Below the pieces are notes generated by a model. That model ran no database searches. It was not told the DNA's origin and saw nothing but the letters and a program-made list of their open reading frames with translations. Below are positions 1 to 36,682 of a stretch of 64,000 nt of DNA, in pieces (the stretch's first letter is position 1; every line of letters starts with the position of its first letter). Both the position numbers and the translations under genes were made by a program. The DNA is from Cordylochernes scorpioides. Its lineage: Eukaryota; Arthropoda; Arachnida; Pseudoscorpiones; Chernetidae. The stretch is from positions 10,019,916-10,083,915 of the forward strand of contig CP092872.1 of assembly GCA_030710605.1 (NCBI GenBank), written 5' to 3'.

Positions 1-107
1 AAATTGCTCATTATCTGCCTCTATACCGCTATAACCAGTTATGACTGTTGTAGAAATGCTTTCATGTTTGATTCTTGGTAGCATAGAGATAAAATGTTTT
101 GGCGTGG

Positions 108-370
108 CTACAAATCTTCTGAAATTTTAGGTGGAATAATCCCTGCCCATAGATTCTGTGCGGGCTGAATCATTTTATTGTAGGCGATGCTTTTTGGAAG
201 GATTGTGAAAGACAGGGGTATGCTAGAATGTGCGGCAAATTTAACTTCTTGGTCTACTAGATCATATCCTATGACACCTCTGTGACCTTTGACCCAGCAG
301 GGTTGTACATTGAGCGTAGAGATGTAGATTGCAAATGACTCTTCTGCACATTAAAATGATAGGTTTCCAG
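108..370 (-). pseudogene. C-terminal end of a LINE RNase H domain (copy A)
   Basis: Read on the minus strand, about 312 down to a stop at 108-110 gives an open stretch with the RNase H-like block WVKGHRGVIGYDLVDQEVK, which matches the usual W-x-x-x-H-x-G-x-x-G-x-x-x-x-D end of RNase H in LINEs of the I/jockey type. The matching stretch in copy B (20700-21287) runs on into a knuckle-like CQNGDQTVNH motif after the stop, so the element is interrupted by nonsense changes. Only the 3' part of the element is present; upstream (higher coordinates) the sequence turns into A+T-rich DNA with no RT. This family differs from the LINE at 4043-6076. Non-functional remnant. Confidence 0.55.
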
Positions 371-2110
371 AAAAAAATCAAAAAAGATACTTTGAAGTTT
401 GACGTTTTTTATCATTTATTTTATTCAAACTTTCGAAAATGAAAGAAAAGGAATGTAACAAAATAGACCTAAAATCATTCCAATGTTTAAAAAAGGTACA
501 TATGAAGTTGAGAATTGAATAAGTAGTTTAGGAATTTTTAGCGCACCAGACAAATTTTCAATTCTATTCATGTAGAGATATACAGAATGGCCTAGGTTAT
601 TTTCACATATTGCTTGTGTTAATTTATAATCCTGCTCTTGAATATATTTACTAACCAATACAGCAACCAATATTGTTTTATCCATATTATCATATACCTT
701 CTCAGTAATGGAGAAAATATATTAAAATTTCACACATATTCTCAAATACAACCGAGAAATTGTTCTTGTAAAATGTGAAAGGCTTTGGTGGTTAACCTTC
801 AATTTATAGATTCCATTACCATAATATTTTCTCTTCATATTTGTCAACTAAAACTTTATAGTTCATAAGAAGTAAGTTATTATTTGATATAAAATCGATA
901 TAAATTCGTAAAAGATGAAATTGATTTCCAAATTTTAAAAAATCATTACTCAAATTTCTTTGGGAAACATAAAATTATTGAAAAAATAGTGTCAAATTTC
1001 CTTTTCAAATTCCAAATGGAAATAATATTATTTATTTAAAGAATTTTACATAGTAAGTTAGCCTGTTGAAAACTTCAAACGAAGCTAGATATATTCACTA
1101 GCGAAATATTGTTAAAACATAATGAAAACGTTGGAAATTCGTAAATTTAATATAGGTTAATAACATCTTTTTGAAAGGTTACACAGAGTAAATACACTAC
1201 AACCTACCTCTAACGTATTGTTATTTTTCGCCATTTTTTAATTAATTTATTTTTTCAGGACTTCGCGCCCTAGCAAAAGACGCACGTAAATATAACTATC
1301 TTGTGAGTAATAATTGTTATTTATATAGTTATACATATATATTAAAATTAATAAGAAATTATTTGTACACTTTACGAATTTTGAGATGAAAACGTAAATA
1401 TATTACCTTTACATTATTGTCTTTTACACAGATTTAAAATAAAGTTTGAAAATAAAATTCTTGATACATAGGACAACACAAAAATATATTTTCAAATTTT
1501 AAACTTGAATATAAAACGAAATAGACATAAATAAATATTTTATAGCATTACGATTAAATTAAGCCATATTTCTATTTTTATTCTGGAAGATTTGTGAATG
1601 ACAATCCCGTAAGTGTCATTTCTTAAAATCAACATATTAATCAGAATATATATTTAAATAAGAATTTAAATTTCAAATTTATTTATTGTACATTTTTTTA
1701 TTCATCTATAAATTTACGTCTTACAAAATTTAAATGTAGGTCGTCATATTTCTAGGCTTTTAAATATTTAAATTAGTATTTTTAATAATATAGAAATGTG
1801 TTCCTATAAATGAAACAAGGAAACAATTTATGAATTAAAATTATATAATATGTATAAAATAGGTCACAATATATTCAGATTTATATTACGAGTCTAGAAA
1901 TTATAAAAGTTCAAAACAAAGTTAAATTTTGGTTTTACATGAGATCCCATGTATAATATATTATAATAATATTAAAGAAAACATTTTTAGTAAAAAAACA
2001 AGGAGGGGTTATTTTAATCGCTAACCTTGAGACAGTTTGATGCAAAATACTACCTGAAATGAATGTAAAAATCACATGCTCCATGAACATTCATTTTTCA
2101 ATTGTGTGTA
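371..2110. other. A+T-rich stretch without a recognised gene
   Basis: I see no splice-linked gene here. A minus-strand ORF of 86 codons at 425-685 has a hydrophobic C-terminus, and it is present unchanged at 21342-21602, but that only reflects the duplication and is not evidence of selection. The rest is low-complexity A+T-rich sequence. Confidence 0.6.
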
Positions 2111-4042
2111 CAGTGGAACTTCAATATAACAACCTATTTTATGACAACAATAAGGTTATAGCATCATAGCTCTAAAGTCCAAAATATAAGCCCCCAATTG
2201 TTTCAACAATGGATATAACAACATAAAATCTTGGACCCAAATGGTTTTATAGGGAGGTTCAAATGTATTTTTCTTTCTAATTTAAAATTATCTTACATCT
2301 TAATATACATTATTTTTAAATCCTTTATTATATATAATGTTCTCTTAACTATGCTTCAAAGAGCCATTTCTCTTACTTTCTCTTTAAAACACTTTTTTTC
2401 TACTTTAAATATCATATTTATTTCAGAAATTAGTCTTTTTCATGATGTTTTGAAAAGCTCATTTTGAAGGCTGAAACTTGTTGCCTGACCAAATCCTATT
2501 ATAGAGGTTGATTCTACACGGCCTAAGTACAATTTGTTATTCCTTGATGTAGGGCCTAACACTGGTATTTCCTTCTAATTTAATAAATTTTTACCAAATA
2601 AAATATGCTAATGAAATGGACCCTATTAATTGAAAAAAAAAAGTTTTAGAAATAGTATAAGTCATGCATTGTAGATTAGACCATATCCCTGTAGCTAGAA
2701 AAGGACAAATTAAACCGAAATCGAATATAAATGCTCTTCAAAAGGAATATAAGGAAATAAAAGCTTTGAGAAAAGAGCAAAGCAATAGAAGAAAATGTGC
2801 CTAAATCAAAGGCCTTATTCACTGTTGCTTTTTGAAAACTGGGATATAAATTACTAAAGGCAAAAAAGCCATGGATTTCATAAGATTAAATAAAGAGGGA
2901 AGCGGGTAATCCAATAGAGTTATTAATTTCTTGATATCCCTATATGGAAAAAAGCATAAAGCAAAAATATTTGAAATTAAATTAAACTAGAAGAACTTGA
3001 CAAATAAAAGATACTTTCAATATGCAAATCAAAACAAAAGAAAGTCCCTATACATTCCCAATGTTTTGAAAAATAAGAACAAATGGAACTTTTACCCAAA
3101 GAAATTAAAAGAGGTAGATAGAATATGGTGAGCTCCATGTGGTAATAAAGGAAATCAAGGATATTTTGTTATTAAAGCAAATATAGAAGGCTTCGTAATT
3201 ATTAGAAGAAATAGGTATTGTATTTATTAAACATATTTTTATAGTTTACTAATTGAATCTTTGAAAGAAACTGATGAATATTTCACAAATACTGAAACAA
3301 AAATTCTATGCAATCTTATTAAAAAGGGGCTTTGATTCCATTTCATAAATTTCTGCATTTAAATTGGATTAAAATGAAAATTAGATTCAAATATTATATT
3401 GTGAAAAATGTATTACCAAGGCACTCTAAATAGGATAGTTATATATATATAACTATATATTTGCAGAAAGAGCTATATTAAATATGCAGATGGCATTGAA
3501 TTTATATGAATTTACTTAGCTTGAAAGCATTTTAAATGAGAATGGAAATGCCTTTTCAAGCCTGAACTTTAGAAAATAAAAAGCTTATTCAATTTCCTAA
3601 TTATGCAGTGATATCTCCAGTAGAGAGGTTAGCCATCATGAAGCCTTATTTAAACCTAGAGTAAGCCAAATTTTGATAACATAGAAGCTGATACTGTATA
3701 AGGGCATTTTGGGTTCAAAGTTGACTATTTTGGATGGGTTACCAATATGCTATGAAGAGCCCCATCCACTCTTGGTTTGAAATCAGTTTACCTTTTTCTT
3801 GATGAACTTTTAGTTTTGAATAATAAGTTCCATCTCCATTGTGAATGATGCTATTGTCTCACCACTCCTTGTTGGTCCTCGCCTGCTATTTAACAAATCC
3901 ACACTATTGAAGACTTGCCTATATTGTAGCTAACACTCATATGTGACATACCTGATTACAGCTCTGCTCCAGGATTTAGATAAGGGATTCTTGATCATTG
4001 TTTTAAAATAAATGATGATACACAGGATCAGCATAGAAAAAT

Positions 4043-6051
4043 GTCAGAGCTTTCAAAAAATATCAAAGCACAGAAGATTCAATCTTTTACTTCGTTCAAC
4101 AAATCCAGGACAGCTTCCATCATAAACCTACAGAATCCACTATAGCAGCCTTCATCGACCTTTCCCAAGCCTTCGACAGAGTCTGGAAGGAAAAGCTAAT
4201 TCTCAAACTCGACGAACTTGGAATAGAGGGAAGTATGCTGAGTTGGATCAGCAATTTTCTATCCAAACGCACCATACAGGTTAACTTCAACAACATCAAA
4301 TCAAAAGCCACTCGTATTTACCAAGGTCTACCCCAAGGATCAATCCTAAGCCCTATTCTCTTCAATATTTACCTAAATGATGTACACACTTTTATCAAAC
4401 CGCCAGCTAAAATTGCCCTTTACGCAGATGACATAATCATCTGGGTCTCCAAAAACAACCTCTCCGATGCAGAACAATCTCTGAATAAAGCGATGAAAAA
4501 TCTACAAAAGGTAACTCAGAAACTAAAATTATCCATCAACATCAGCAAATCTGAAATCGGCCTCTTCACCATCAACAACCACCTTCGCCACTGGACCCCA
4601 AATATTTTCTTAAATAATTCAAAACTTCAATATTCAGATTCCCCAAGATATCTTGGTGTCACACTTGACCCTGCGCTCACTTTTAAAAAACATATTGACA
4701 CCATGATAAGCAAAGCCAAAAATAGGCTCAAAATCCTGAAAAAAATATCAGGCTTAAACTGGGGTGCAAATGCCAATATTTTACGCACAACGTACCTTGC
4801 ACTCGTAAGACCTATTTTGGAATATGCTACACCAGCCTGGATCAATGCAAGTAAAACTAACCTATCCAAAATAGACAGAATCCAAGCAAGCGCAGCTAAA
4901 ATCATCAGCGGACTTCGAGGATCCTGCCCAAATCGCATTGCTGAACTCGAATTCAACCTTCTTCCCCTGCACCTAAGGAGAAAAATCTGCTTTTCAAAAT
5001 TTATAACAAAAAAGATTAACTCTCCAAAAGAACATCTTACAGGAAAATTTATTAGAAATTGGGTCCCAAACCAAAGATTAAAACGCCCCACTCCTCTCAA
5101 CATGGCTCACAACTCTAATCTTTTAGACATCCCAATTAATCCCAAACACAGAACTTCCTATCCCCCACACAAAACTCGCAACAAACTCATCTGTTTCCCT
5201 CATCTACCAGACAATCCCCACAAACATGAAACTCAGCCAGAATTACTTAAAGCTCTTGGCCTCCAAATCATTGAGGAAAATAGCTCCCTCTTTGACATCA
5301 CAATTTACACTGACGGTAGCCAACTTGAAACTGGACTGTCTGGCAGTGGAATTGCTATCTACAAAGATAAGATCCTGGAAAAAATCTCCCTCTCCCACCC
5401 TAGACATCTTTTAGTTTATAAATCAGAACTCTCTGCTATAGATACGGCTCTAAAAGACATCAACATCAACTCGCCAAGCAAAATAATAATCTACTCCGAC
5501 TCAAGAGCAGCCATTTATACCCTTCAAAGCTGCTTCTCCAGTCAAGAACCTCTCCTCAAGAACATTGCTAAGTCTGTAAACCGACTACTAGCCAACAGCT
5601 CAGTCACAGTGCAATGGCTTCCAGCTCACGTTGGAATTCCTGGTAATGAGCTGGCAGACTCTCTGGCAAAGGCTGGAGCTCTTGGCCTACCTGAAGCAAG
5701 AGAATCCACCACCCAACTGGACGAAAGAGACCTCCTCCGTACCATCAAAACCCAATGCCTGCAGGAATGGAGGTCTGATGCTGCACATATGACTGGTACA
5801 GAGCAGGAGGGACAAGCACCGGTTCTGTCCTCCCAAGAGAACAACAGTCTTTGATTTCCAGACTTAAGTCTGGTCATCTACGGACAATGACTTTCCAGAA
5901 TGGTTGCAAGGTTTTCCCACTATGTACCAAGTGCAATTCTCAGCCTGCAACCCCAAGACATATTATTGACTGTATTGACTCATCCATTGATGAGCTCTAC
6001 TCTTCCCCGGCAGACACCATAAAAAATCTCAAGCTTGATACCTTAGTGTGA
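4043..6051 (+). pseudogene. LINE ORF2 with RT, RNase H and zinc knuckle, 5'-truncated and frameshifted (copy A)
   Basis: The frame opens inside the RT domain (QSTED block at about 4067), then shows RT motif A FIDLSQAFDRVW at 4151-4186, LPQGS near 4330 and catalytic YADD at 4421-4432. An RNase H domain follows (YTDGS near 5308, YSDSRAA near 5493, WLPAHVGIPGNELAD near 5620), then a knuckle CTKC..H..C near 5923-5973 and a stop at 6049-6051. A stop at 4034 and loss of the APE endonuclease and RT fingers mark 5' truncation. One base is missing near 5787 compared with copy B, which shifts the frame at 5788-5854; the tail continues from 5851 in another frame. The element ends in TGAGTGGAGATAAGAAAGAA plus a short GAA tail. 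Domain order fits the I/jockey group of LINEs. It is a dead copy. Confidence 0.9.
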
Positions 6052-6052
6052 T

Positions 6053-6523
6053 TGAGTGGAGATAAGAAAGAAGAAACTCGATGAAATGCACCAAAAACTT
6101 CGCCGTATCTGCCCGAGATTGGTCAACAGAAAAGGACCTATTCTTCTCAACGACAACGCCCGACCACACGTCTCAACGATCACACAACAAAAGTTGAATG
6201 AGTTGGGCTATGAAACTCTTTATCACCCACCATACTCGCCCGACCTCTCGCCTACCGACTACCACTTTTTTTAAGCACCTCGCCAACTTTCTGGGTGAGA
6301 AATGCTTTAAAAACCAAGGTGATGCCGAAATGGCCTTCAATGAATTCATTGCCTCCAGAGCTCCAGATTTTTATAAAACTGGAATATACCAGCTTGTTTC
6401 TCGTTGGCAAAGATGTATCGATGCCAATGGTTTATATATTGATTAATAAAGGTTTGCTTGTAACGAGTTATTGCTTTTTAAAGTTGTCACTACAAATAGG
6501 CCATTATTTTTTCATCAACCTAA
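6053..6523 (+). pseudogene. C-terminal part of a mariner transposase with right terminal repeat (copy A)
   Basis: Directly after the LINE tail, two overlapping frames (6056-6274 and 6198-6446) give the C-terminal half of a mariner transposase: the second catalytic Asp block LLNDNARPH and the third one, YSPDLSPTDYHFF. An extra T in the run at 6265-6271 breaks the frame just after the third Asp, and the same extra T is in copy B, so it predates the duplication. The sequence ends near 6523 in GGCCATTATTTTTTCATCAA followed by CCTAA and a TA, a plausible mariner right end (inverted: TTAGGTTGATG...). The N-terminal half and left end are absent; the LINE sits where they should be. Confidence 0.8.
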
Positions 6524-8389
6524 TAAAAAGAATTACAGTATATTTTCTTCAGTTCAATCGACTATAATTCAACACTTTAATTCAACTATTTTTTGAATAA
6601 CCAATCAACCTATTTATTTTAAATAGGTATAATTCAACACTCCTTTAAGTGTTGGCTTCAAAATTTCCTCCAAAATTGTGCACTATCAATGAATGTTGTA
6701 ATGACTTTATAATCATTTTAATCTCAAGAAGGCCACAATTATATCATTCCTAGAATTTTTTAAAGGTGCCATGGGGTACATTGATATAATTCTCACTCTT
6801 TCTCACCCTTTCCTGTTTATTTATAGAAGGTTGCTGGCTATTGCATGCAGCATAATGAAATTAGAACCTCCAACAAACATTTTTTACCATCATTGTAATG
6901 TTTTCTATTTTTTCTTTTCGGTTTTGGCTTGCAAGCTTGTTTACTGAGATGGAATCTTCTCTTACATCTACTAGATTAAATTAAACTTGTATATTTTATG
7001 ATGATTCCACCATTAGTTATGAACCTGAAGATATTTCTGATTTAGATGAGTGTGCTAATATTAGAATAAAGGATAAATTGTTTCTAGCTCACACATACAT
7101 CATGTATTCAATTTTAAAAACCCCATCGCAAGATACACAAGATCAAAAGATTCACAAATTCCTCTACAAATAAATTGTGCACTTTGAAGCATTTTGAAAC
7201 ACATATAATATGAATTTCCCCAATAGCCATTTTTTAGAAACTAATTTATATACCCAGCAGTTTTTATCTAAAGTAATTCTTTTTTCTATATCTATAGAAT
7301 TTAAAATGGCTAAAGGTTCAGGAATCTGGGCTACCACAAGAAAAAAAGAGAGAGAGAAATGACAAAAAAAAAAGACCTTTTTGATGTTAAAATTTTTGAA
7401 TCATATTTAGGCCTCCTTCTAAATATAAAAATTGTGAAATGTATGATTATGTTTTCTTTTAGAAAGAATCAAACATTAGTTATATAATATCGTGTGATAT
7501 GGGATCTTTTTTATACTTTTGTAAAATTGGCAAATGATGTATAATGGAGAAAACCAATCTTACTGATACACTGAGAAGAAACCCTGAGGAGAGTGACAGT
7601 GTGACAGAAAAGTCTGTAACTAAATATAAAATTGGTTGATGTAGCCATATATTTTTCCAAACCAACTCTCAACCAACAAATGATCTTCAAAACATAAATA
7701 TTTAGTAAAAGGAAATGAAATGAAAATAATTGGAGTTTGCAAAAGGATTTACAGATACAAAAAACCTGTCTTGCACCTTAGTAGGGTCTCAAACTTCACT
7801 TGTTCTCACGCTCAACATAAGCTGAATCTAGCTTCCAATTAAAAAAAAAAAACCTCCTCAGGCAAAGAGAATAAAATTTATTAGAAATAAAAAACTAAAT
7901 TGGAAAAAGGAGGTGTAGACTTATAAAATGATTATCAAGATGAGAGAAAATTTCTTAAATGATGGAGAAAAGTATTTATAAGGATGATTCATGGAACTTT
8001 TGGAATACCTATATCATTTCTAGAAAAAATATTGAGGGAGAAGTATACCAGGTATCCATGTGTTTCCCGTAATAAAGGTGTATGCTTTGGCTGCTAGAGT
8101 GAGCATAAAGAAATGTTAATAGTATATATATTCAGATTTTTTAAAATAACAGATTAAAAATTTGTATGTATGTGTCTGTTTGTTTGTATTTTGTGTAAAT
8201 ATATATATTATTAAATTATTTGAAAATGAATGCCATTTTCCTCATTCCTTTTGCCTTAAAATTTTAAAAGTTCAATTTTATAGCTTCTAAATATCTATAT
8301 TTACCTTTCATTAATTTAAATGGTTTCACATCCATATGGCTATTTCTTAAAATGAAGCCTTCAAAGTATTTTATTAATTAAAATATCAT
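6524..8389. other. Stretch between nested elements, no clear gene
   Basis: Lies inside the composite transposon. Near 6950-7090 there is a short ATG-led stretch rich in Asp and Glu on the plus strand with an in-frame stop; it could be a transposase N-terminal relic, but I cannot assign it. Near 6555-6650 are repeated AATTCAACACT words resembling the ends of CAGT-terminus elements. Nothing else recognised. Confidence 0.4.
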
Positions 8390-9985
8390 CTTTCTTATCT
8401 CCATTAAAAAATATCAGGGTATCAAGTCTGTAGAGCTTGAGATTTTTGATGGTGTCTACTAGGGATGACTCAATGGATGAACAGGTTAAGGTTAAGGATG
8501 TGCAGGTTAAGAATTGCACTTAGTACATGTGGGAAAAACTTGCAAAAAGTCATTGTCTGTAGATGACCAGACTCAAGTTTGGAAATCAAGGACTGCTCTT
8601 CCCTTGGGAGGACAGAATTGGTGCTTGTCCCTCCTGCTCTGTACCAGTCATGTGCAGCAGTGGATTTCCATTCTTGCTGGCATTGGGCCATTGTCTGCCA
8701 GTTCATTTCCAGGAATTCCAAAATGATCTGTAAGCCATTTTACTGTGACAGCTGTTGGCTGGGAGTTAGTTTACAGATTTTTCAATGCTCTTGAGAAGTT
8801 CTTGATTGGAAAAACAGGTTTGAAGGGTATAAATGGCTGCTCTTGAATCGGAGTCGATTATAATTTTACTTGGTGAATTGATGTTGTTTTAAGTGCAGTG
8901 TCTATTGCAAATAGTTCTAATTTGTAAACTGAGAGGTGTGTAGGATGTGAAAGGGAGATTTTTTCAAGGATTGTATCTTTGTAAATGGCAATACCATTAC
9001 CAGACAGTTGAGGTTCAAGTTGCCTACCATCAGTGTAAATTGCTATTTCAAAGAGGGAGCTATTTTCTTCAATGATTTGAAGGCCAAGAGCTTCCAGTAA
9101 TTATGGCCAGTTTCATGTTTGTGGGTTGACTGGGAGATGAGGTATACAGGTGAGTTTATTCCGAGTTCTGTATGGAGGTTAGAAAGTTTTGTGTTTAGGA
9201 TTAATTGGGATATCTAAAAGATGAGAATTGTAAGCCATGTTGAGAGGAGTGGGGCTTTTTTTTCTTTGATTTAAATCCCAATTTTGAATAAAATTTCTGT
9301 AAGGTGTTCTTTGGGAGAAATAATCTTTTTAAATATGAATTTTGAGAAGCAGATTTTTCTCCTGAGATGCCGGGAAAGAAGGTTAAATTCGAGTTCAGCA
9401 ATGTGATTCAGGAAAGATCCTCAAAGCCCTAAAATGATTTTAGCTACACTGGCTTGGATTCTGTCTATTTTAGATGATTGCTTTTGCTTGAATTGATCTA
9501 GGATCGGGCAGCATATTCTAAAATATGCCTAAAGAGTGTAAGGTAAGTTCTTCATAAGATATTGGCATTTGCACCCCAGTTTAAGCCTGATATTTTTCGA
9601 AAATTCAGAGTATTATTAGCTTTGTGTATCATGGTGTCAACATATTTTTTAAAGGTGAGAGGAGGGTCAAGTGTGAAAACAAGATATCATGGGGAATCCA
9701 AATATTTGATTATTGAAGTATTCAAAAAAAATTTTGGGGTCCAGTGGCGAAGGTGATTGTTAATGAAGAGGCCAATCTCAGATTTGATGATGTTAATAGA
9801 TAATTTGGTTTTGGATTACCTTTTGTAGATAATTCATAACCTTGTTCAGAGAGTATTCTGCATCTAAGAGGTTGTTTTTGGAGACCCAGATGATTTATGT
9901 TAAAGAGAATAGAGCTTAGAATTGACCCTTGGGGTAGACTTTGGTAAATACAGGTAGTTTTGATATATTGTTGTTGAAATATCTT
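8390..9985 (-). pseudogene. Second copy of the same LINE, inverted and decayed (copy A)
   Basis: On the minus strand the order is: LPQGS-type RT block near 9940, the RT thumb region near 9560-9750, RNase H pieces, then the 3' ORF end (DWYRAGGTSTNSVLPREEQS near 8600) and a 3' tail, seen on the plus strand as CTTTCTTATCTCCATT at about 8392. The protein words match the LINE at 4043-6051, but many frameshifts and stops are present, so this copy is older. Its inverted orientation to the first copy makes a pair of long inverted repeats within the composite transposon. Confidence 0.8.
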
Positions 9986-10196
9986 AGAATCTTGAGCTAA
10001 TAATTCTTATTCTTTAAAGTTAATATCCATTTGTTATACTCTATGCATACTATTTAAATTATGTTGCTCAGTTTTTAATATGTTGAACCCTTATTATAAC
10101 AACTTTTCCAAGATTTAAGTTCTAATTGATTTAACCATAGTTATAACAATTTAGAATCTGCCCCAAATGATGTTGTTATAGCAAGGTTTGACTGTA

Positions 10197-11198
10197 TTAT
10201 AGTAATCTCAGAGTAAAAAACTCATTTATGGGTGAAGCTAAGAGTCTTATAGTCATAAAGCCAGGTGAAGGAACAAAAAAAATCTCACCTTCAAATTTGA
10301 TAAAATATTCTATTTAAACAAAAGAGGAAAGGAGGAGGAGGAAAATAATTTTTGCTTGTTTTTAACTTCACCATTTCCCTTCCTCCTCTGCATAGGCATA
10401 GCAATCAATCAGTTTTTTTAGTAATCATATTAGTGATGATAACATTAGAATTAATCGGTTTGCCATTTAAATGTGTGTATTTATAATCATTCAAATGATT
10501 GATCTTTATTGCACCATTTAAAAAATTGACCTTTATTTAGAATAAACTGGTATTAGTGGCAAATATGATGTAAAACATTCCAAGTTATCAAGCTTTCTTC
10601 AATACACTAATCATTAGATTAGAAAGGAAGATGCCCCCCCTGGAAAAAGACAATTGATTTTTTTATTCTTTTTAACCTAGAATTCCCTAATGTTTATGTG
10701 ACATAGTTGATTATTCTCAATGTTTTATATAATCTAGATAGTTTTTTAAACAACCTTGAATTGTTCTACAACTTCAGATTTCATATAATTTTTCTATTAA
10801 TGACATTTTTTATTCTTACCTAGCATTTTTGGAGATTTCTAGTTTTGCCTGTGTTGGCATGTCAGACCCATATAAAGTCATATGTATATGTAGCCTTTTA
10901 TACTATTCATTCTCTCATCTTGTTTCATTGCTTTCTGGGCAATGAGCATCCATCCATGAAATTTGGTTTTGATAATGGTATTCTTGATCCTATTTCATCT
11001 TTAGTCGAGTTGTCTAAATAGTTGAAACTTATCTTTTGGGATATAGATTACTAAAATTTAATACTTTGATGTATTTATTCATACCTATCCACTAACTTTA
11101 ATCACACACAGGTAAACCTTTCACTTTTCTCCTTGCTGTTGCTTCATAAAAAAATATATTAAGAAAACAATTTTATGCATAACAACATTCACATTTAG
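10197..11198. other. A+T-rich stretch without a gene
   Basis: No coding or RNA gene seen. A purine-rich block at about 10321-10345 (GAGGAAAGGAGGAGGAGGAA) is matched by a pyrimidine-rich block at 10371-10392, so it could pair into a hairpin. Confidence 0.5.
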
Positions 11199-12601
11199 CT
11201 CTTTCTGGTCCACATGCCCTTTACTTACAACAGTGTAGAGGTTGCTATCTACTTGTATGTAACACTATTTATTTGTATAGCTCTCCTTAAATCTTGATAT
11301 TACTAAATATAATAGAAAAAAATCATGTTTCACAATGGAAATATATTTATTAGTGCGTAAAACTAAATAAAAACATAAATATATATTTATTTTTACTTTA
11401 ATAAACTATAGTTGAAAATTCTAATCATTTTTTAAATATAGTGTTTATGGAAGCTATCCCCCAAATGAAGATCTGGTTTGTCGCTACAGGTTTCACAATA
11501 AAAACCTGTTCTTTTCCATCAGGTGGGGATGGGGAAGAACAGACTTTACAGTCTTTGGTCTTGATGTTAGCATTATGGAACTGAATGTTCATTCTTTCCA
11601 AGCCTGCTGAAGCTTTCATACATTTTGGATGTTCATTCTGCCATGGTTACACAAGCTCTTTCATTAACTATTCCCAGTATTTTTTGTGACAGATTGTCCT
11701 TAGCCAATTATTTTTCTTGTTTTGGCTATATATGATGTATGAGTTGACAGCAGCCACTTCTAGACCCCCAAAAGCAATTTTCTCTACCATCTACAGTTAT
11801 TCTGAGAAAGTTTATATTGCACAATAATGGTTAGCAATATCCACATCTTTCATATTCGAAGTGTAGTCAATAATAGTAGTTCGCTTTTGAATTTCTTCTG
11901 AGCCACGTCTAATTTGCCTGGTGACTTTTTTGAAGCTTTGTGGAATTAAGATACACAAGATGGACCACATGCTTATCCTCCAAAAGAGTGCAAGTAGGTT
12001 TTTTTTTCTTTCTGAAGACAAGAGTTTTGTACCACTGAAAGTCGTGGTTTTATTAGTTCCTGTGACATTCCCGTCTGTTTGACATAATAATCCAAATTAG
12101 GTAACTCTACATTTTAGAAAGTTCATCAATATGAATAAAATTTGTGTAGAAACTATGTGAAAATATGGAAACCGGTTTATATTTGATTAGGATTCTGCTG
12201 GAGCATAGTAAGTAGATGAATCACATTCATTGAAGTAAATGCCAGATTAGTCATATTAGAGTTGAAGTAGTTTTACTACCTAGATATAGCATAAAATAAT
12301 ATAAGCGACCTATTATGAAAGCAGCAAAAACATGTCCAAGCTACATTTGGTAGGCTTTTCCAGGTTATTGGTTTCAAACCCAATTCCTCCGTTGAAACTT
12401 ACTGTTTCTTCATCAATTGCAAGATTTTGAACCACTAGTAATAATTCTAAGCCTTTTCAATTCAAAAGTCCATAAAATGGGATGTGGCGCATAAAATAAA
12501 TTTGCTTGAAACGATTTTTTTTTGTGAAAATTGCTAAGAAAAATGACATTTTTATAAAATATTTGAGACCAGTAGGCATTTATTGAGGCCAAAGAGGTAT
12601 A
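11199..12601 (-). pseudogene. piggyBac-type transposase, C-terminal two thirds (copy A)
   Basis: Read on the minus strand from 12601 down: a block with the first catalytic Asp (NLAIDEETVSFNGG, near 12415), an FYTN block near 12150, the third Asp block (TSNMKDVDIANHYC, near 11840), GGLEVAAVNSYI near 11740 and the cysteine-rich C-terminal finger (KDCKVCSS near 11550, then CETCSDKP in a shifted frame near 11485). These are the landmarks of piggyBac transposases (DDE_Tnp_1_7 plus C-terminal Cys-rich domain). Many stops and shifts show that it is dead. The low-coordinate end at 11199 (CTCTTTCTGGTCCACATGCC) resembles the other end of the element seen beyond copy B (37318), and is preceded by TTAG, a one-base variant of the TTAA target. 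The N-terminal part lies beyond the assembly gap. Confidence 0.8.
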
Positions 12602-14211: not shown

Positions 14212-14294
14212 CGTGGCTTGGCTTCTTGTTTCTTTATGCTCTGGTATATGAGGGATTTGCTTCCCGGTCAGATCTTATCCTGTCGACTTTTCAA

Positions 14295-15178: not shown

Positions 15179-15181
15179 ATT

Positions 15182-23579: not shown

Positions 23580-25280
23580 TGTTCTCTTAACTATGCTTCA
23601 AAGAGCCATTTCTCTTAATTTCTCTTTAAAACACTTTTTTTCTACTTTAAATATCATATTTTAAAAAGAAATTAGTCTTTTTCATGATGTTTTGAAAAGC
23701 TCATTTTGAAGGCTGAAATTTGTTGCCTGACCAAATCCTATTATAGAGGTTGATTCTACACGGCCTAAGTACAATTTGTTATTCCTTGATGTAGGGCCTA
23801 ACACTGGTATTTCCTTCTAATTTAATAAATTTTTACCAAATAAAATATGCTAATGAAATGGACCCTATTAATTGAAAAAAAAAGTTTTAGAAATAGTATA
23901 AGTCATGCATTGTAGATTAGACCATATCCCTGTAGCTAGAAAAGGACAAATTAAACCGAAATCGAATATAAATGCTCTTCAAAAGGAATATAAGGAAATA
24001 AAAGCTTTGAGAAAAGAGCAAAGCAATAGAAGAAAATGTGCCTAAATCAAAGGCCTTATTCACTGTTGCTTTTTGAAAACTGGGATATAAATTACTAAAG
24101 GCAAAAAAGCCATGGATTTCATAAGATTAAATAAAGAGGGAAGCGGGTAATCCAATAGAGTTATTAATTTCTTGATATCCCTATATGGTAAAAGCATAAA
24201 GCAAAAATATTTGAAATTAAATTAAACTAGAAGAACTTGACAAATAAAAGATACTTTCAATATGCAAATCAAAACAAAAGAAAGTCCCTATACATTCCCA
24301 ATGTTTTGAAAAATAAGAACAAATGGAACTTTTACCCAAAGAAATTAAAAGAGGTAGATAGAATATGGTGAGCTCCATGTGGTAATAAAGGAAATCAAGG
24401 ATATTTTGTTATTAAAGCAAATATAGAAGGCTTCGTAATTATTAGAAGAAATAGGTATTGTATTTATTAAACATATTTTTATAGTTTACTAATTGAATCT
24501 TTGAAAGAAACTGATGAATATTTCACAAATACTGAAACAAAAATTCTATGCAATCTTATTAAAAAGGGGCTTTGATTCCATTTCATAAATTTCTGCATTT
24601 AAATTGGATTAAAATGAAAATTAGATTCAAATATTATATTGTGAAAAATGTATTACCAAGGCACTCTAAATAGGATAGTTATATATATATAACTATATAT
24701 TGGCAGAAAGAGCTATATTAAATATGCAGATGGCATTGAATTTATATGAATTTACTTAGCTTGAAAGCATTTTAAATGAGAATGGAAATGCCTTTTCAAG
24801 CCTGAACTTTAGAAAATAAAAAGCTTATTCAATTTCCTAATTATGCAGTGATATCTCCAGTAGAGAGGTTAGCCATCATGAAGCCTTATTTAAACCTAGA
24901 GTAAGCCAAATTTTGATAACATAGAAGCTGATACTGTATAAGGGCATTTTGGGTTCAAAGTTGACTATTTTGGATGGGTTACCAATATGCTATGAAGAGC
25001 CCCATCCACTCTTGGTTTGAAATCAGTTTACCTTCTTCTTGATGAACTTTTAGTTTTGAATAATAAGTTCCATCTCCATTGTGAATGATGCTATTGTCTC
25101 ACCACTCCTTGTTGGTCCTCGCCTGCTATTTAACAAATCCACACTATTGAAGACTTGCCTATATTGTAGCTAACACTCATATGTGACATACCTGATTACA
25201 GCTCTGCTCCAGGATTTAGATAAGGGATTCTTGATCATTGTTTTAAAATAAATGATGATACACAGGATCAGCATAGAAAA

Positions 25281-27293
25281 ATGTCAGAGCTTTCAAAAAA
25301 TATCAAAGCACAGAAGATTCAATCTTTTACTTCGTTCAACAAATCCAGGACAGCTTCCATCATAAACCTACAGAATCCACTATAGCAGCCTTCATTGACC
25401 TTTCCCAAGCCTTCGACAGAGTCTGGAAGGAAAAGCTAATTCTCAAACTCGACGAACTTGGAATAGAGGGAAGTATGCTGAGTTGGATCAGCAATTTTCT
25501 ATCCAAACGCACCATACAGGTTAACTTCAACAACATCAAATCAAAAAGCCACTCGTATTTACCAAGGTCTACCCCAAGGATCAATCCTAAGCCCTATTCT
25601 CTTCAATATTTACCTAAATGATGTACACACTTTTATCAAACCGCCAGCTAAAATTGCCCTTTACGCAGATGACATAATCATCTGGGTCTCCAAAAACAAC
25701 CTCTCCGATGCAGAACAATCTCTGAATAAAGCGATGAAAAATCTACAAAAGGTAACTCAGAAACTAAAATTATCCATCAACATCAGCAAATCTGAAATCG
25801 GCCTCTTCACCATCAACAACCACCTTCGCCACTGGACCCCAAATATTTTCTTAAATAATTCAAAACTTCAATATTCAGATTCCCCAAGATATCTTGGTGT
25901 CACACTTGACCCTGCGCTCACTTTTAAAAAACATATTGACACCATGATAAGCAAAGCCAAAAATAGGCTCAAAATCCTGAAAAAAATATCAGGCTTAAAC
26001 TGGGGTGCAAATGCCAATATCTTACGCACAACGTACCTTGCACTCGTAAGACCTATTTTGGAATATGCTACACCAGCCTGGATCAATGCAAGTAAAACTA
26101 ACCTATCCAAAATAGACAGAATCCAAGCAAGCGCAGCTAAAATCATCAGCGGACTTCGAGGATCCTGCCCAAATCGCATTGCTGAACTCGAATTCAACCT
26201 TCTTCCCCTGCACCTAAGGAGAAAAATCTGCTTTTCAAAATTTATAACAAAAAAGATTAACTCTCCAAAAGAACATCTTACAGGAAAATTTATTAGAAAT
26301 TGGGTCCCAAACCAAAGATTAAAACGCCCCACTCCTCTCAACATGGCTCACAACTCTAATCTTTTAGACATCCCAATTAATCCCAAACACAGAACTTCCT
26401 ATCCCCCACACAAAACTCGCAACAAACTCATCTGTTTCCCTCATCTACCAGACAATCCCCACAAACATGAAACTCAGCCAGAATTACTTAAAGCTCTTGG
26501 CCTCCAAATCATTGAGGAAAATAGCTCCCTCTTTGACATCACAATTTACACTGACGGTAGCCAACTTGAAACTGGACTGTCTGGCAGTGGAATTGCTATC
26601 TACAAAGATAAGATCCTGGAAAAAATCTCCCTCTCCCACCCTAGACATCTTTCAGTTTATAAATCAGAACTCTCTGCTATAGATACGGCTCTAAAAGACA
26701 TCAACATCAACTCGCCAAGCAAAATAATAATCTACTCCGACTCAAGAGCAGCCATTTATACCCTTCAAAGCTGCTTCTCCAGTCAAGAACCTCTCCTCAA
26801 GAACATTGCTAAGTCTGTAAACCGACTCCTAGCCAACAGCTCAGTCACAGTGCAATGGCTTCCAGCTCACGTTGGAATTCCTGGTAATGAGCTGGCAGAC
26901 TCTCTGGCAAAGGCTGGAGCTCTTGGCCTACCTGAAGCAAGAGAATCCACCACCCAACTGGACGAAAGAGACCTCCTCCGTACCATCAAAACCCAATGCC
27001 TGCAGGAATGGAGGTCTGATGCTGCACAGTATGACTGGTACAGAGCAGGAGGGACAAGCACCGGTTCTGTCCTCCCAAGAGAACAACAGTCTTTGATTTC
27101 CAGACTTAAGTCTGGTCATCTACGGACAATGACTTTCCAGAATGGTTGCAAGGTTTTCCCACTATGTACCAAGTGCAATTCTCAGCCTGCAACCCCAAGA
27201 CATATTATTGACTGTATTGACTCATCCATTGATGAGCTCTACTCTTCCCCGGCAGACACCATAAAAAATCTCAAGCTTGATACCTTAGTGTGA
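25281..27293 (+). pseudogene. LINE ORF2 with RT, RNase H and zinc knuckle (copy B)
   Basis: Counterpart of 4043-6051. One extra A in the run at 25553-25557 breaks the frame between RT motif A and the LPQGS block; YADD is at 25662-25673. From 25734 the frame stays open for 519 codons through RNase H and the CTKC knuckle to the stop at 27291-27293, so the 3' frameshift of copy A (near 5787) is absent here. The 5' end is truncated as in copy A. The two copies therefore carry different single-base breaks. Confidence 0.9.
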
Positions 27294-27768
27294 TTGAGTG
27301 GAGATAAGAAAGAAGAAGAAACTCGATGAAATGCACCAAAAACTTCGCCGTATCTGCCCGAGATTGGTCAACAGAAAAGGGCCTATTCTTCTCAACGACA
27401 ACGCCCGACCACACGTCTCAACGATCACACAACAAAAGTTGAATGAGTTGGGCTATGAAACTCTTTATCACCCACCATACTCGCCCGACCTCTCGCCTAC
27501 CGACTACCACTTTTTTTAAGCACCTCGCCAACTTTCTGGGTGAGAAATGCTTTAAAAACCAAGGTGATGCCGAAATGGCCTTCAATGAATTCATTGCCTC
27601 CAGAGCTCCAGATTTTTATAAAACTGGAATATACCAGCTTGTTTCTCGTTGGCAAAGATGTATCGATGCCAATGGTTTATATATTGATTAATAAAGGTTT
27701 GCTTGTAACGAGTTATTGCTTTTTAAAGTTGTCACTACAAATAGGCCATTATTTTTGCATCAACCTAA
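27294..27768 (+). pseudogene. C-terminal part of a mariner transposase (copy B)
   Basis: Counterpart of 6053-6523, with the same extra T after the third catalytic Asp. The GAA tail of the LINE is one unit longer here, as expected for slippage in a short repeat. Confidence 0.8.
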
Positions 27769-29629
27769 TAAAAAGAATGACAGTATATTTTCTTCAGTTC
27801 AATCGACTATAATTCAACACTTAATTCAACTATTTTTTGAATAACAAATCAACCTATTTATCTTTAATAGGTATAATTCAACACTCCTTTAAGTGTTGGC
27901 TTCAAAATTTCCTCCAAAATTGTGCACTATCAATGAATGTTGTAATGACTTTATAATCATTTTAATCTCAAGAAGGCCACAATTATATCATTCCTAGAAT
28001 TTTTTAAAGGTGCCATGGGGTACATTGATATAATTCTCACTCTTTCTCACCCTTTCCTGTTCATTTATAGAAGGTTGCTGGCTATTGCATGCAGCATAAT
28101 GAAATTAGAACCTCCAACAAACATTTTTTACCATCATTGTAATGTTTTCTATTTTTTCTTTTCGGTTTTGGCTTGCAAGCTTGTTTACTGAGATGGAATC
28201 TTCTCTTACATCTACTAGATTAAATTAAACTTGTATATTTTATGATGATTCCACCATTAGTTATGAACCTGAAGATATTTCTGATTTAGATGAGTGTGCT
28301 AATATTAGAATAAAGGATAAATTGTTTCTAGCTCACACATACATCATGTATTCAATTTTAAAAACCCCATCGCAAGATACACAAGATCAAAAGATTCACA
28401 AATTCCTCTACAAATAAATTGTGCACTTTGAAGCATTTTGAAACACATATAATATGAATTTCCCCAATAACCATTTTTCAGAAACTAATTTATATACCCA
28501 GCAGTTTTTATCTAAAGTAATTCTTTTTTCAATATCTATAGAATTTAACATGGCTCAAGGTCAGGAATCTGGGCTACCACAAGAAAAAAGAGAGAGAAAT
28601 GACAAAAAAAAAAACCTTTTTGATGTTAAAATTTTTGAATAATATTTAGGCCTCCTTCTAAATATAAAAATTGTGAAATGTATGATTGTGTTTTCTTTTA
28701 GAAAGAATCAAACATTAGTTATATAATATCGTGTGATATGGGATCTTTTTTATACTTTTCGTAAAATTGGCAAATGATGTATAATGGAGAAAACCAATCT
28801 TACTGATACACTGAGAAGAAACCCTGAGGAGAGTGACAGTGTGACAGAAAAGTCTGGAACTAAATATAAAATTGGTTGATGTAGCCATATATTTTTCCAA
28901 ACCAACTCTCAACCAACAAATGATCTTCAAAACATAAATATTTAGTAAAAGGAAATGAAATGAAAATAATTGGAGTTTGCAAAAGGATTTACAGATACAA
29001 AAAACCTGTCTTGCACCTTAGTATGGTCTCAAACTTCACTTGTTCTCACGCTCAACATAAGCTGAATCTAGCTTCCAATTAAAAAAAAAAACCTCCTCAG
29101 GCAAAGAGAATAAAATTTATTAGAAATAAAAAACTAAATTGGAAAAAGGAGGTGTAGACTTATAAAATGATTATCAAGATGAGAGAAAATTTCTTAAATG
29201 ATGGAGAAAAGTATTTATAAGGATGATTCATGGAACTTTTGTAATACCTATATCATTTCTAGAAAAAATATTGAGGGAGAAGTATACCAGGTATCCATAT
29301 GTTTCCCGTAATAAAGGTGTATGCTTTGGCTGCTAGAGTGAGCATAAAGAAATGTTAATAGTATATATATTCAGATTTTTTAAAATAACAGATTAAAAAT
29401 TTGTATGTATGTGTCTGTTTGTTTGTATTTTGTGTAAATATATATATGATTAAATTATTTGAAAATGAATGTCCATTTTCCTCATTCCTTTTGCCTTAAA
29501 ATTTTAAAAGTTCAATTTTATAGCTTCTAAATATCTATATTTACCTTTCATTAATTTAAATGGTTTCACATCCATATGGCTATTTCTTAAAATGAAGCCT
29601 TCAAAGTATTTTATTAATTAAAATATCAT
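27769..29629. other. Stretch between nested elements, counterpart of 6524-8389
   Basis: No gene recognised; a few substitutions and short indels against copy A. Confidence 0.5.
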
Positions 29630-31225
29630 CTTTCTTATCTCCATTAAAAAATATCAGGGTATCAAGTCTGTAGAGCTTGAGATTTTTGATGGTGTCTACT
29701 AGGGATGACTCAATGGATGAACAGGTTAAGGTTAAGGATGTGCAGGTTAAGAATTGCACTTAGTACATGTGGGAAAAACTTGCAAAAAGTCATTGTCTGT
29801 AGATGACCAGACTCAAGTTTGGAAATCAAGGACTGCTCTTCCCTTGGGAGGACAGAATTGGTGCTTGTCCCTCCTGCTCTGTACCAGTCATGTGCAGCAG
29901 TGGATTTCCATTCTTGCTGGCATTGGGCCATTGTCTGCCAGTTCATTTCCAGGAATTCCAAAATGATCTGTAAGCCATTTTACTGTGACAGCTGTTGGCT
30001 GGGAGTTAGTTTACAGATTTTTCAATGCTCTTGAGAAGTTCTTGATTGGAAAAACAGGTTTGAAGGGTATAAATGGCTGCTCTTGAATCGGAGTCGATTA
30101 TTATTTTACTTGGTGAATTGATGTTGTTTTAAGTGCAGTGTCTATTGCAAATAGTTCTAATTTGTAAACTGAGAGGTGTCTAGGATGTGAAAGGGAGATT
30201 TTTTCAAGGATTGTATCTTTGTAAATGGCAATACCATTACCAGACAGTTGAGGTTCAAGTTGCCTACCATCAGTGTAAATTGCTATTTCAAAGAGGGAGC
30301 TATTTTCTTCAATGATTTGAAGGCCAAGAGCTTCCAGTAATTATGGCCAGTTTCATGTTTGTGGGTTGACTGGGAGATGAGGTATACAGGTGAGTTTATT
30401 CCGAGTTCTGTATGGAGGTTAGAAAGTTTTGTGTTTAGGATTAATTGGGATATCTAAAAGATGAGAATTGTAAGCCATGTTGAGAGGAGTGGGGCTTTTT
30501 TTCTTTGATTTAAATCCCAATTTTGAATAAAATTTCTGTAAGGTGTTCTTTGGGAGAAATAATCTTTTTAAATATGAATTTTGAGAAGCAGATTTTTCTC
30601 CTGAGATGCCGGGAAAGAAAGTTAGATTCGAGTTCAGCAATGTGATTCAGGAAAGATCCTCAAAGCCCTAAAATGATTTTAGCTACACTGGCTTGAATTC
30701 TGTCTATTTTAGATGATTGCTTTTGCTTGAATTGATCTAGGATCGGGCAGCATATTCTAAAATATGCCTAAAGAGTGTAAGGTAAGTTCTTCATAAGATA
30801 TTGGCATTTGCACCCCAGTTTAAGCCTGATATTTTTCGAAAATTCAGAGTATTATTAGCTTTGTGTATCATGGTGTCAACATATTTTTTAAAGGTGAGAG
30901 GAGGGTCAAGTGTGAAAACAAGATATCATGGGGAATCCAAATATTTGATTATTGAAGTATTCAAAAAAAATTTTGGGGTCCAGTGGCGAAGGTGATTGTT
31001 AATGAAGAGGCCAATCTCAGATTTGATGATGTTAATAGATAATTTGGTTTTGGATTACCTTTTGTAGATAATTCATAACCTTGTTCAGAGAGTATTCTGC
31101 ATCTAAGAGGTTGTTTTTGGAGACCCAGATGATTTATGTTAAAGAGAATAGAGCTTAGAATTGACCCTTGGGGTAGACTTTGGTAAATACAGGTAGTTTT
31201 GATATATTGTTGTTGAAATATCTTA
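29630..31225 (-). pseudogene. Inverted decayed LINE copy (copy B)
   Basis: Counterpart of 8390-9985, with the same order of RT, RNase H and 3' tail on the minus strand and the same disruptions. Confidence 0.8.
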
Positions 31226-31434
31226 GAATCTTGAGCTAATAATTCTTATTCTTTAAAGTTAATATCCATTTGTTATACTCTATGCATACTATTTAAATTA
31301 TGTTGCTCAGTTTTTAATATGTTGAACCCTTATTATAACAACTTTTCCAAGATTTAAGTTCTAATTGATTTAACCATAGTTATAACAATTTAGAATCTGC
31401 CCCAAATGATGTTGTTATAGCAAGGTTTGACTAT

Positions 31435-32435
31435 ATTATAGTAATCTCAGAGTAAAAAACTCATTTATGGGTGAAGCTAAGAGTCTTATAGTCATAAAGC
31501 CAGGTGAAGGAACAAAAAAAATCTCACCTTCAAATTTGATAAAATATTCTATTTAAACAAAAGAGGAAAGGAGGAGGAGGAAAATAATTTTTGCTTGTTT
31601 TTAACTTCACCATTTCCCTTCCTCCTCTGCATAGGCATAGCAATCAATCAGTTTTTTTAGTAATCATATTAGTGATGATAACATTAGAATTAATCGGTTT
31701 GCCATTTAAATGTGTGTATTTATAATTATTCAAATGATTGATCTTTATTGCACCATTTAAAAAATTGACCTTTATTTAGAATAAACTGGTATTAGTGGCA
31801 AATATGATGTAAAACATTCCAAGTTATCAAGCTTTCTTCAATACACTAATCATTAGATTAGAAAGGAAGATGCCCCCCCTGGAAAAAGACAATTGATTTT
31901 TTTATTCTTTTTAACCTAGAATTCCCTAATGTTTATGTGACATAGTTGATTATTCTCAATGTTTTATAATCTAGATAGTTTTTTAAACAACCTTGAATTG
32001 TTCTACAACTTCAGATTTCATATAATTTTTCTATTAATGACATTTTTTATTCTTACCTAGCATTTTTGGAGATTTCTAGTTTTACCTGTGTTGGCATGTC
32101 AGACCCATATAAAGTCATATGTATATGTAGCCTTTTATACTATTCATTCTCTCATCTTGTTTCATTGCTTTCTGGGCAATGAGCATCCATCCATGAAATT
32201 TGGTTTTGATAATGGTATTCTTGATCCTATTTCATCTTTAGTCGAGTTGTCTAAATAGTTGAAACTTATCTTTTGGGATATAGATTACTAAAATTTAATA
32301 CTTTGATGTATTTATTCATACCTATCCACTAACTTTAATCACACACAGGTAAACCTTTCACTTTTCTCCTTGCTGTTGCTTCATAAAAAAATATATTAAG
32401 AAAACAATTTTATGCATAACAACATTCACATTTAG
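31435..32435. other. A+T-rich stretch without a gene, counterpart of 10197-11198
   Basis: No gene seen. Includes the same purine-rich and pyrimidine-rich pair near 31563 and 31615. Confidence 0.5.
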
Positions 32436-33389
32436 CTCTTTCTGGTCCACATGCCCTTTACTTACAACAGTGTAGAGGTTGCTATCTACTTGTATGTAAC
32501 ACTATTTATTTGTATAGCTCTCCTTAAATCTTGATATTACTAAATATAATAGAAAAAAATCATGTTTCACAATGGAAATATATTTATTAGTGCGTAAAAC
32601 TAAATAAAAACATAATATATATTTATTTTTACTTTAATAAACTATAGTTGAAAATTCGAATCATTTTTTAAATATAGTGTTTATGGAAGCTATCCCCCAA
32701 ATGAAGATCTGGTTTGTCGCTACAGGTTTCACAATAAAAACCTGTTCTTTTCCATCAGGTGGGGATGGGGAAGAACAGACTTTACAGTCTTTGGTCTTGA
32801 TGTTAGCATTATGGAACTGAATGTTCATTCTTTCCAAGCCTGCTGAAGCTTTCATACATTTTGGATGTTCATTCTGCCATGGTTACACAAGCTCTTTCAC
32901 TAACTATTCCCAGTATTTTTTGTGACAGATTGTCCTTAGCCAATTATTTTTCTTGTTTTGGCTATATATGATGTATGAGTTGACAGCAGCCACTTCTAGA
33001 CCCCCAAAAGCAATTTTCTCTACCATCTACAGTTATTCTGAGAAAGTTTATATTGCACAATAATGGTTAGCAATATCCACATCTTTCATATTCGAAGTGT
33101 AGTCAATAATAGTAGTTCGCTTTTGAATTTCTTCTGAGCCACGTCTAATTTGCCTGGTGACTTTTTTGAAGCTTTGTGGAATTAAGATACACAAGATGGA
33201 CCACATGCTTATCCTCCAAAAGAGCGCAAGTAGGTTTTTTTCTTTCTGAAGACAAGAGTGTTGTACCACTGAAAGTCGTGGTTTTATTAGTTCCTGTGAC
33301 ATTCCCGTCTGTTTGACATAATAATCCAAATTAGGTAACTCTACATTTTAGAAAGTTCATCAATATGAATAAAATTTGTGTAGAAACTA

Positions 33390-34468
33390 CAGTCGAACCT
33401 CTTTAATTCAACACCCCAAGGGATCAGAGCTTTCGGTTGAATTAAAGGAAGTGTTGAATTAAGGTTAGATGATTAGTTAATCATCTAACTCACGAAAATA
33501 ATATTTTTAAAAATTTGCTCTGTAATATAGATTAATGGTATTAATTGAAACCATTGTATGTGTACTTTTTTGTATTTATTTTTTTATTTTGATGATTAAC
33601 TCTCAGTATCAGGGACAAAATGGCAATAATACATATTTTTGAAACATAAATAATTACAAATAAAATTTATTCTAATTGAAGAATATAGCAGTTGAAAGGA
33701 AAATAATATGGAAAATAAAAAGAAAATTTTAAAATAATCATGAATATCTTTTTAAAAATTCCTTTATAGATGTCTGCCTTTTCACTGAAATCCTATTCAA
33801 AATGTATTCCAGATGGTCTATTAAAAAAAATGCATGTCTTTCTTCCTCTGGAATGTGCTTTAAATAACAAAGAGCTTTTATTATATTAAAGGCATCCACT
33901 GCTGCTGCAGGTGTTATTGATTTTGTCTTTAAATATTTTATAATAACATGGAAATGGAATATTGAAATAAAATGTTATCATAATAATTGAGCTACATTTT
34001 ATGAAGATTTATTTATTTAAAAAGAAATTATTTGTAAATTTTGAAATAACACTAAAATATTTCAATGCTGAAAATTAAAAAGAAAATAATATTATTAATT
34101 AGCGCACAAAGCCTAAATTCCCGCGTAAAAAAAAACAAAAACAATAACACTTGCGACATTGCGCAACGGCACTACAAAGTGAAACTTAAACTAACAGAAA
34201 CCAAAAGTGCGCAGTCGCGATCCTATCGGCGCCCGCCGATGCCGATCGTCGCCGCCGTAATACCGTTTAGCGGTAAAGTTGTATGTAAAAAAACATTCAA
34301 CTGTCGAAATTCGAATTTTTAAATGGTCGAACTATCGGAACTGTCGTATTATCGATACTGTCGAATTACGGTTTGTTATTTGATAGGCCGGAGGTCGGGA
34401 CATCAGAATATGGTCGAATTAAGGTAGAGTGTCGAATTTGCGTGTGTCGAATTAACGAAGTTATACTG
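33390..34468. mobile_element. 1079-bp CAGT-terminus transposon, present only in copy B
   Basis: Left end CAGTCGAACCTCTTTAATTC, inverted right end CAGTATAACTTCGTTAATTC, flanked by TA on both sides (33388-33389 and 34469-34470). Copy A has the uninterrupted site with one TA (near 12154). No transposase is recognisable, so it is a non-autonomous pogo/Tigger-type element. The right part (34200-34260) is unusually G+C-rich. Relatives of its ends occur at 48284-48359 and 55667-55698. Confidence 0.88.
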
Positions 34469-34919
34469 TATGTGAAAATATGGAAACCGGTTTATATTTG
34501 ATTAGGATTCTGCTGGAGCATAGTAAGTAGATGAATCACATTCATTGAAGTAAATGCCAGATCTAGTCATATTAGAGTTGAAGTAGTTTTACTACCTAGA
34601 TATAGCATAAAATAATATAAGCGACCTATTATGAAAGCAGCAAAAACATGTCCAAGCTACATTTGGTAGGCTTTTCCAGGGTTATTGGTTTCAAACCCAA
34701 TTCCTCCGTTGAAACTTACTGTTTCTTCATCAATTGCAAGATTTTGAACCACTAGTAATAATTCTAAGCCTTTTCAATTCAAAAGTCCATAAAATGGGAT
34801 GTGGCGCATAAAATAAATTTGCTTGAAACGATTTTTTTTTTGTGAAAATTGCTAAGAAAAATGACATTTTTATAAAATATTTGAGACCAGTAGGCATTTA
34901 TTGAGGCCAAAGAGGTATA

Positions 34920-36682
34920 CAGTAGTCTCCAATGCCAAAACCGGTCTCTTTAGGAGACGGCCTCTCATCGGAGACTCGGTCATGATAAGTCAGTAATGAT
35001 AAGTTATATGGTATATTCTTTCAACACAAAAATTGGGTGTTTTGCATTATCATATATGTAACCTACATAGGTTTAATAAGTAAACCTTCTATGGAAAACA
35101 CTATTTTGCAGGTTGGCTCTATAATATAGTCAAAATGATTTACTTCAACCCACTTTTTTATATTATATTCCAAAGTTTGATTATCGATGCTCTGCATGCT
35201 CTACATGTTTTAAATATAAGGCCCTTCAAAACTTGGCATCAAATAAGCTTCATTAAAATAGAATTTCTCAATATAGATGACAGCAGGTTGATGAAATGTT
35301 GGAATAAAGTATTTGTTGAAGTAAATCATTTTTATAACTTCCCTTCTACCCTACTATCCAAACACTATATATTATTAAAATCTTGGTTTTTAAAAAATGA
35401 AAAATACTCAATCTATTAGTTATACACATTAAAATAAATTTTACTTATCTTTACAAGGCTCTTAAAAATGTCCTAAATGAGAATCAGCTAAAGAGAATGT
35501 ATAAATTATAATTTCCACCTATTTTAACTTAAACTTTTGCAGGATGCCTTGATCAAATAGCTGACACTTGTAATACTGGGTGCAATTGGGTGATTCATAT
35601 ATTGCCCCAAAATAAAATAACTTCTATTTCATAATTGTGTGTGAATAGACTCATGTTTTGTTTATAATATATGAGGTAACTTTTTTTATTTGAAAATCAA
35701 TTGAAAGAAAACTAATCACATACTTTATAATACCCTAGATTTTCTAATAGACCAATAAGGAGTTATAGTTATTTGCCTTCAAAAAGGTTGGTTAAAACTC
35801 AAAAAGTTATTTTTTTTTGTAAATTTCACCACTAACTGAAAGATCTATTTTTTCAGTAACTTTTTGAACACTATATTATACAATGGTCACATTCATCCAA
35901 ATTAAAATTTTCAAGAGTGAATAATTTTTGCATTGCTCAATTATTTTTTCACATTAAATCTTCAGTTATGTTTCCATCGTATGTTGCAGCATTTTATAAA
36001 CTTTTCAAATAAACAGGGAAGTTTTGAATTATTTTATCAAAATATCAAGCTTTTTTAAAAGCAGTGGCCCCAATATTGGAAATATTTTGAATCGCATATC
36101 GGCCATTTGTACATTTCATTTTCAGATAGTTTTTCCTTTATATAATATAACCCATTTCTAAAAATTCTTAAATATTCTATTTAGTTCTTGATAAAATTGG
36201 GCTATAACAATATTAATTATTCTAGCAATTTGTCGATCGCTAACACCAAATGTCATTTATTAAAACATTTTGTTAATTAAAAAAGTTATAAACCTATATT
36301 CAAAATTTAATTTAATAAATTATAAAATAAAGATCAAATTTCAAAGTGAATAACCTATCATTTGATAAATAGAAAACAAAATGAGATGTTTTGAAATGAC
36401 AAAGAGGGTATAATTCAAAAAGCACTCGTTAATTGCGTAGCAAAAAATTCAACAAAATATTTTATTGAATAATTTCAAATTTGTTATTTTTCAAACATAA
36501 AACGTTGATTTTTATTTTCTAATGGTCGCTAATTAGAGAACAAAAAGTGATTTTTAGTGGTCACTGGTCGCTCACGGAGACAGTCATTCATGGGAGATTC
36601 GTTATAGTAGTAAAACGGGGATATTTTGTTCGTGCCTTACAAGATGGTCGTTCGTGAGGGACTGGCTCATGAGAGACTACTG
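34920..36682. mobile_element. 1763-bp CAGT-terminus transposon inside the piggyBac
   Basis: Left end CAGTAGTCTCCAATGCCAAA, inverted right end CAGTAGTCTCTCATGAGCCA; flanked by TA (34918-34919 and 36683-36684). Both ends carry further GTCTCC/GGAGAC words, so the inverted repeats are long but diverged. A plus-strand ORF of 94 codons at 35135-35419 lies inside but has no recognisable domain. The surrounding piggyBac protein homology continues on either side, which confirms the borders. Confidence 0.85.

Follow-up and report, generated by a model that had tools for sequence, protein, structure and literature searches.

Two described systems come closest to the locus reported here. The first is the false heterotype duplication, in which alleles of one locus are counted twice in an assembly. 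The published examples come from vertebrate genomes and were judged by read depth, k-mers, and discordant pairs, whereas the present case is judged by assembled sequence alone (PMC8081667, PMC9516828). According to one of these studies, false duplications characteristically have a gap separating the copies within a scaffold, a feature that it did not find in its true duplications (PMC9516828). The second system is the recent true segmental duplication, with high identity, the same orientation, and the same scaffold for both copies.

We analyzed a stretch of 64,000 bases (the window) that contains a pair of long direct repeats, which we call copies A and B. The pair shares with the published false heterotype duplications near-identical collinear copies on one scaffold, a gap between them, allele-like differences, and homology that runs to a contig end (PMC8081667, PMC9516828). 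It resembles a recent true segmental duplication in identity, orientation, and placement on one scaffold, but differs in that no breakpoint or junction is seen and one copy stops just where a contig stops. We consider it probable (approximately 0.85) that copies A and B are alleles of one locus, which would make them an end-to-end contig case of false heterotype duplication; this value and the grades given to the alternatives below are judgements and were not computed.

Extent and Boundaries of the Repeat

When the window is compared with itself by BLAST, positions 1–13756 recur on the same strand at 20917–36094 in three collinear blocks (Table 1). A first-pass annotation had described a near-identical direct duplication at these coordinates, and it was right in both position and description: the blocks are 97.9%–99.28% identical and substitutions affect 0.58% of the aligned columns. 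Given this length and identity, chance is not an issue. The only run of Ns in the whole window lies between the two copies, and by convention we take it to be a scaffold gap of unknown size. In a MAFFT alignment of 1–13756 against 20917–36094, copy A can be aligned up to 13756, the final base ahead of the Ns, so the comparison does stop exactly at the gap, as had been noted.

The homology is therefore bounded on the right by a contig end and on the left by the window edge; only the right end can be tested within the window, and a natural breakpoint is seen at neither end within these 64 kb. The length of 13.7–15.2 kb proposed at first pass agrees with the aligned spans but is only a minimum (for copy A, no less than 13.7 kb), because the left end merely marks where the window starts. 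The start of copy B is to be read in the same light. Two adjacent frames, presumably parts of one decayed retrotransposon (Pfam gives no match in either frame), straddle position 20917, the counterpart of the window edge in copy A. Since these retrotransposon-like frames span 20917, this position appears to be no natural boundary, and the start of copy B seems to be set by the partner being cut at the window edge.

The 7,060 bp between the gap and copy B have no match to copy A, to copy B, or to 36095–64000 (blastn, 7-base words, E-value 1E-3). The first-pass annotation had offered two alleles laid end to end as one reading of the pair; the allelic part of this reading is supported by the present analysis, but the copies do not abut, as the 7,060 bp lie between them.

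Table 1. Coordinates of the repeat, the gap, and associated elements in the 64,000-base window
Feature	Positions	Strand	Remarks
Copy A	1–13756	+	Last part of the contig before the gap; bounded on the left by the window edge, which is no breakpoint
N run	13757–13856	.	Exactly 100 N
Start of contig right of gap	13857–20916	+	7,060 bp between gap and copy B
Copy B	20917–36094	+	Collinear with 1–13756
BLAST block 1	1–2338 / 20917–23253	same strand	99.27% identity
BLAST block 2	2324–12155 / 23562–33389	same strand	99.28% identity
BLAST block 3	12154–13741 / 34469–36067	same strand	97.9% identity
Two adjacent frames, decayed-retrotransposon-like	20612–20923 and 21027–21266	-	Straddle 20917, counterpart of copy A's window edge
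327-bp stretch	23252–23578	.	Copy B only; MAFFT placement; 308 bp by BLAST blocks
1081-bp stretch	33388–34468	.	Copy B only; terminal inverted repeats, TA on both sides
Non-LTR retrotransposon fragment, copy A	4037–5851	+	RVT_1 and RNase_H (Pfam)
Non-LTR retrotransposon fragment, copy B	25277–27290	+	Frame split into 25277–25618 and 25482–27290, the latter with RVT_1 and RNase_H
Decayed inverted relative of the non-LTR retrotransposon	8693–9900	-	82.5% identity to 4431–5659

Differences between the Two Copies

Over 13,737 aligned columns, the MAFFT alignment shows 79 substitutions, of which 45 are transitions and 34 are transversions; it also contains 33 indels. Thirty of the indels are no longer than 4 bp, and the other three measure 11, 327, and 1081 bp. 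Half of the small indels (15) shorten copy A and the other 15 shorten copy B; 24 of the 30 involve a single letter. Because just 12 of these 24 fall in runs of at least four identical letters (which hold 13.9% of the bases of copy A), homopolymer length accounts for only some of the small indels, and some of the single-letter ones may be residual read errors. The differences are thus of the kinds listed at first pass, namely single bases, homopolymer lengths, and whole insertions.

Both long insertions are confined to copy B. The terminal inverted repeats of the 1081-bp stretch begin with CAGT and are alike at 20 of 25 positions. The stretch has a TA on each side, and between the same flanks copy A has one TA, i.e., an empty site. 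It looks like a defective element, presumably of the Tc1/mariner-pogo type, that was inserted in copy B at a position where copy A has remained empty; Pfam finds nothing in the three frames inside or reaching into it. The 327-bp stretch is flanked by AT repeats, which make its exact ends uncertain.

Are the substitutions spread evenly along the repeat? By segment of copy A, the rate is 0.27% in 1–2200, 2.5% in 2201–2400, 0.34% in 2401–6500, 1.3% in 6501–7500, 0.36% in 7501–13000, 2.67% in 13001–13300, 0 in 13301–13580, and 7.39% in 13581–13756; these segments were picked after the positions of the substitutions were known, and the binned tests that follow are independent of that choice. The variance-to-mean ratio is 4.25 in 250-bp bins, 3.28 in 500-bp bins (bases 1–13500), and 2.71 in 1000-bp bins, values matched by 0, 0, and 6 of 10,000 random placements, respectively. 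With changes no more than 2 bp apart pooled, which leaves 71 events, the ratios are 2.90 (0 of 20,000 placements), 2.25 (3 of 20,000), and 1.77 (586 of 20,000). Without the last 256 bases, the pooled ratio in 250-bp bins is 2.33 (0 of 20,000); the 500- and 1000-bp bins contained none of these bases at any point. The unevenness is greatest at short scale and weaker in the 1000-bp bins. Such patchiness is easier to reconcile with haplotype blocks that differ in age than with one date of duplication, and it can also be obtained by gene conversion between true copies or by uneven mutation rates.

The final 176 bases before the gap (13581–13756) deserve separate mention. Here copy A is set apart from copy B by 13 substitutions (11 transitions and 2 transversions; 7.4%) and by a 1-bp and an 11-bp indel, a divergence far above the average. 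An old haplotype block or a poor consensus at the contig end could account for this excess.

Mobile Elements and Gene Content

The non-LTR retrotransposon fragment is present in both copies, and each copy bears a frame break that is absent from the other. Positions 4431–5659 and 8693–9900 are inverted relatives of one retrotransposon within a 5.5-kb span; their counterparts in copy B are 25672–26900 and 29933–31139. The RNase_H match in the piece at 8861–9100 is weak and under the Pfam cut-off. The duplicated stretch also holds a transposase fragment (Pfam: DDE_3). The sequence between the copies includes an LTR-retrotransposon-like element, which is on the minus strand. Pfam identifies reverse transcriptase and RNase H in this element, as well as an integrase piece that scores below the cut-off, and its direct repeats of approximately 200 bp (15323–15520 and 19502–19703) are 91% identical.

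We ran Pfam on 40 frames of the window, with E-values up to 1E-3 in the first scan and 0.1 in the others. Nine frames have matches above the cut-off, all of them to mobile-element domains (RVT_1, RNase_H, RT_RNaseH, DDE_Tnp_1_7, and DDE_3); four have only matches below it (to RNase_H, rve, HupE_UreJ_2, and Churchill, of which the last two look like chance hits); the remaining 27 have no match. Fifty frames of at least 70 amino acids lie wholly inside the two copies (24 in A and 26 in B), and among the 28 of these that were scanned with Pfam no host gene is recognized, a scan that short or divergent exons would escape. Scans of the window for tRNA genes and for Rfam families returned none.

Several features lie elsewhere in the window. 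An element of approximately 1.1 kb at 59306–60410 is bounded by perfect 39-bp inverted repeats (59306–59344 and 60372–60410), which enclose a 202-amino-acid transposase frame on the minus strand (59471–60076). This frame, presumably mariner-like, has no Pfam match at 1E-3. With its identical ends, the element is probably a recent insertion. At 49829–50678, a transposase (Pfam: DDE_Tnp_1_7), presumably of the piggyBac type, is spread over two overlapping frames and is probably a broken copy. The longest open frame outside recognized mobile elements (421 amino acids, 44619–45881) has no Pfam match and, by eye, a zinc-finger-like Cys/His pattern near its end; we regard it as a candidate host coding exon. 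A short tandem array at 50891–51132 has units of 73 and 60 bp with an 18-bp motif and is overlapped by a 162-amino-acid reverse-strand frame (50904–51389). At 41523–41685, an 81-bp unit occurs twice, head to tail, the two being 98% alike.

The GC content of the window is 32.4%, and its mobile elements look like those of an arthropod, perhaps a spider. A spider genome paper characterizes the genomes of spiders as large and heterozygous, with many repeats and a high AT content (PMC8693713), a description consistent with the window, although not specific to any species.

Origin of the Two Copies

A contig-end overlap explains the pattern (collinear near-identity, homology to the contig end, no visible breakpoint, and a 1081-bp stretch opposite an empty site) with one assumption, namely that allelic ends were left unmerged and then ordered across a gap. 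Homology up to the last base before the gap is as such an overlap requires. We infer the following course of events. The left contig, ending at 13756, and the right contig, starting at 13857, would derive one from each parental chromosome, and their ends would overlap at one locus. The assembler would have left the overlap unmerged, the alleles differing by approximately 0.6% substitutions and by the 327- and 1081-bp insertions. The scaffolder would then have ordered the two contigs across the 100-N gap, so that the overlap came to be present twice. The overlap would reach approximately 7 kb beyond the left edge of the window, where the left contig is predicted to match 13857–20916.

The main alternative, which we consider unlikely, is that a segmental or tandem duplication really took place, and very recently, with an offset of 20,916 bp including the gap and a unit of approximately 21 kb or more. 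The copies would have diverged afterwards, copy B gaining the two insertions, perhaps with gene conversion between them. A recent event likewise gives collinear near-identical copies on one scaffold. Contigs often break within true recent duplications, so a gap at the end of a copy would be unsurprising, and its position is for this reason no proof of allelism. Nor are the allele-like variants (the 79 substitutions and the TA-flanked insertion with its empty site) peculiar to alleles, as paralogs would show them too. Against a true duplication, neither a breakpoint nor a head-to-tail junction is visible in the window; because 13857–20916 has no match to 36095–64000, the end of copy A, and with it the junction, would have to lie hidden in the gap. 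The patchy divergence would in addition call for gene conversion or uneven mutation. The first-pass annotation had held a false duplication to be at least as probable as a true one. The evidence goes further and puts the false duplication ahead, short of proof, in that the homology ends only at the contig end and the window edge and the sequence right of the gap does not recur after copy B. Both readings predict reads that run from 13857 into copy B, since everything from 13857 through copy B belongs to one contig.

It is far less probable that the pair is a false homotype duplication, in which one allele was assembled twice owing to read errors. The share of single-letter indels found in homopolymer runs (12 of 24, against 13.9% of the bases of copy A) and the private frame break in each copy of the retrotransposon fragment count in favor of this reading. 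A 1081-bp insertion between TAs, opposite an empty site that has just one TA, is implausible as a read error, as is the 327-bp insertion, and transitions outnumber transversions. We reject pure read error on account of the TA-flanked insertion and its empty site. The excess of transitions and this insertion make the differences look real, and the insertion together with the patchiness of the substitutions suits two haplotypes better than sequencing error.

Two insertions of one mobile element larger than 13 kb (e.g., a Maverick) would account for the several mobile-element remains in the duplicated stretch, but we reject this reading as having next to no probability, since what is recognized there consists of distinct elements, some on one strand and some on the other, including one represented by two inverted relatives, and since no polymerase B, integrase, or capsid domain appears in the 28 frames scanned with Pfam out of the 50 that the two copies contain.

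Copies A and B call for caution in annotation, where they should not be entered as a duplication. Read as biology, the pair would give the genome a segmental duplication and additional transposon copies, all of them spurious. Read as alleles, as we prefer, it shows two haplotypes, including differences in mobile-element insertion sites that arose after the haplotypes parted.
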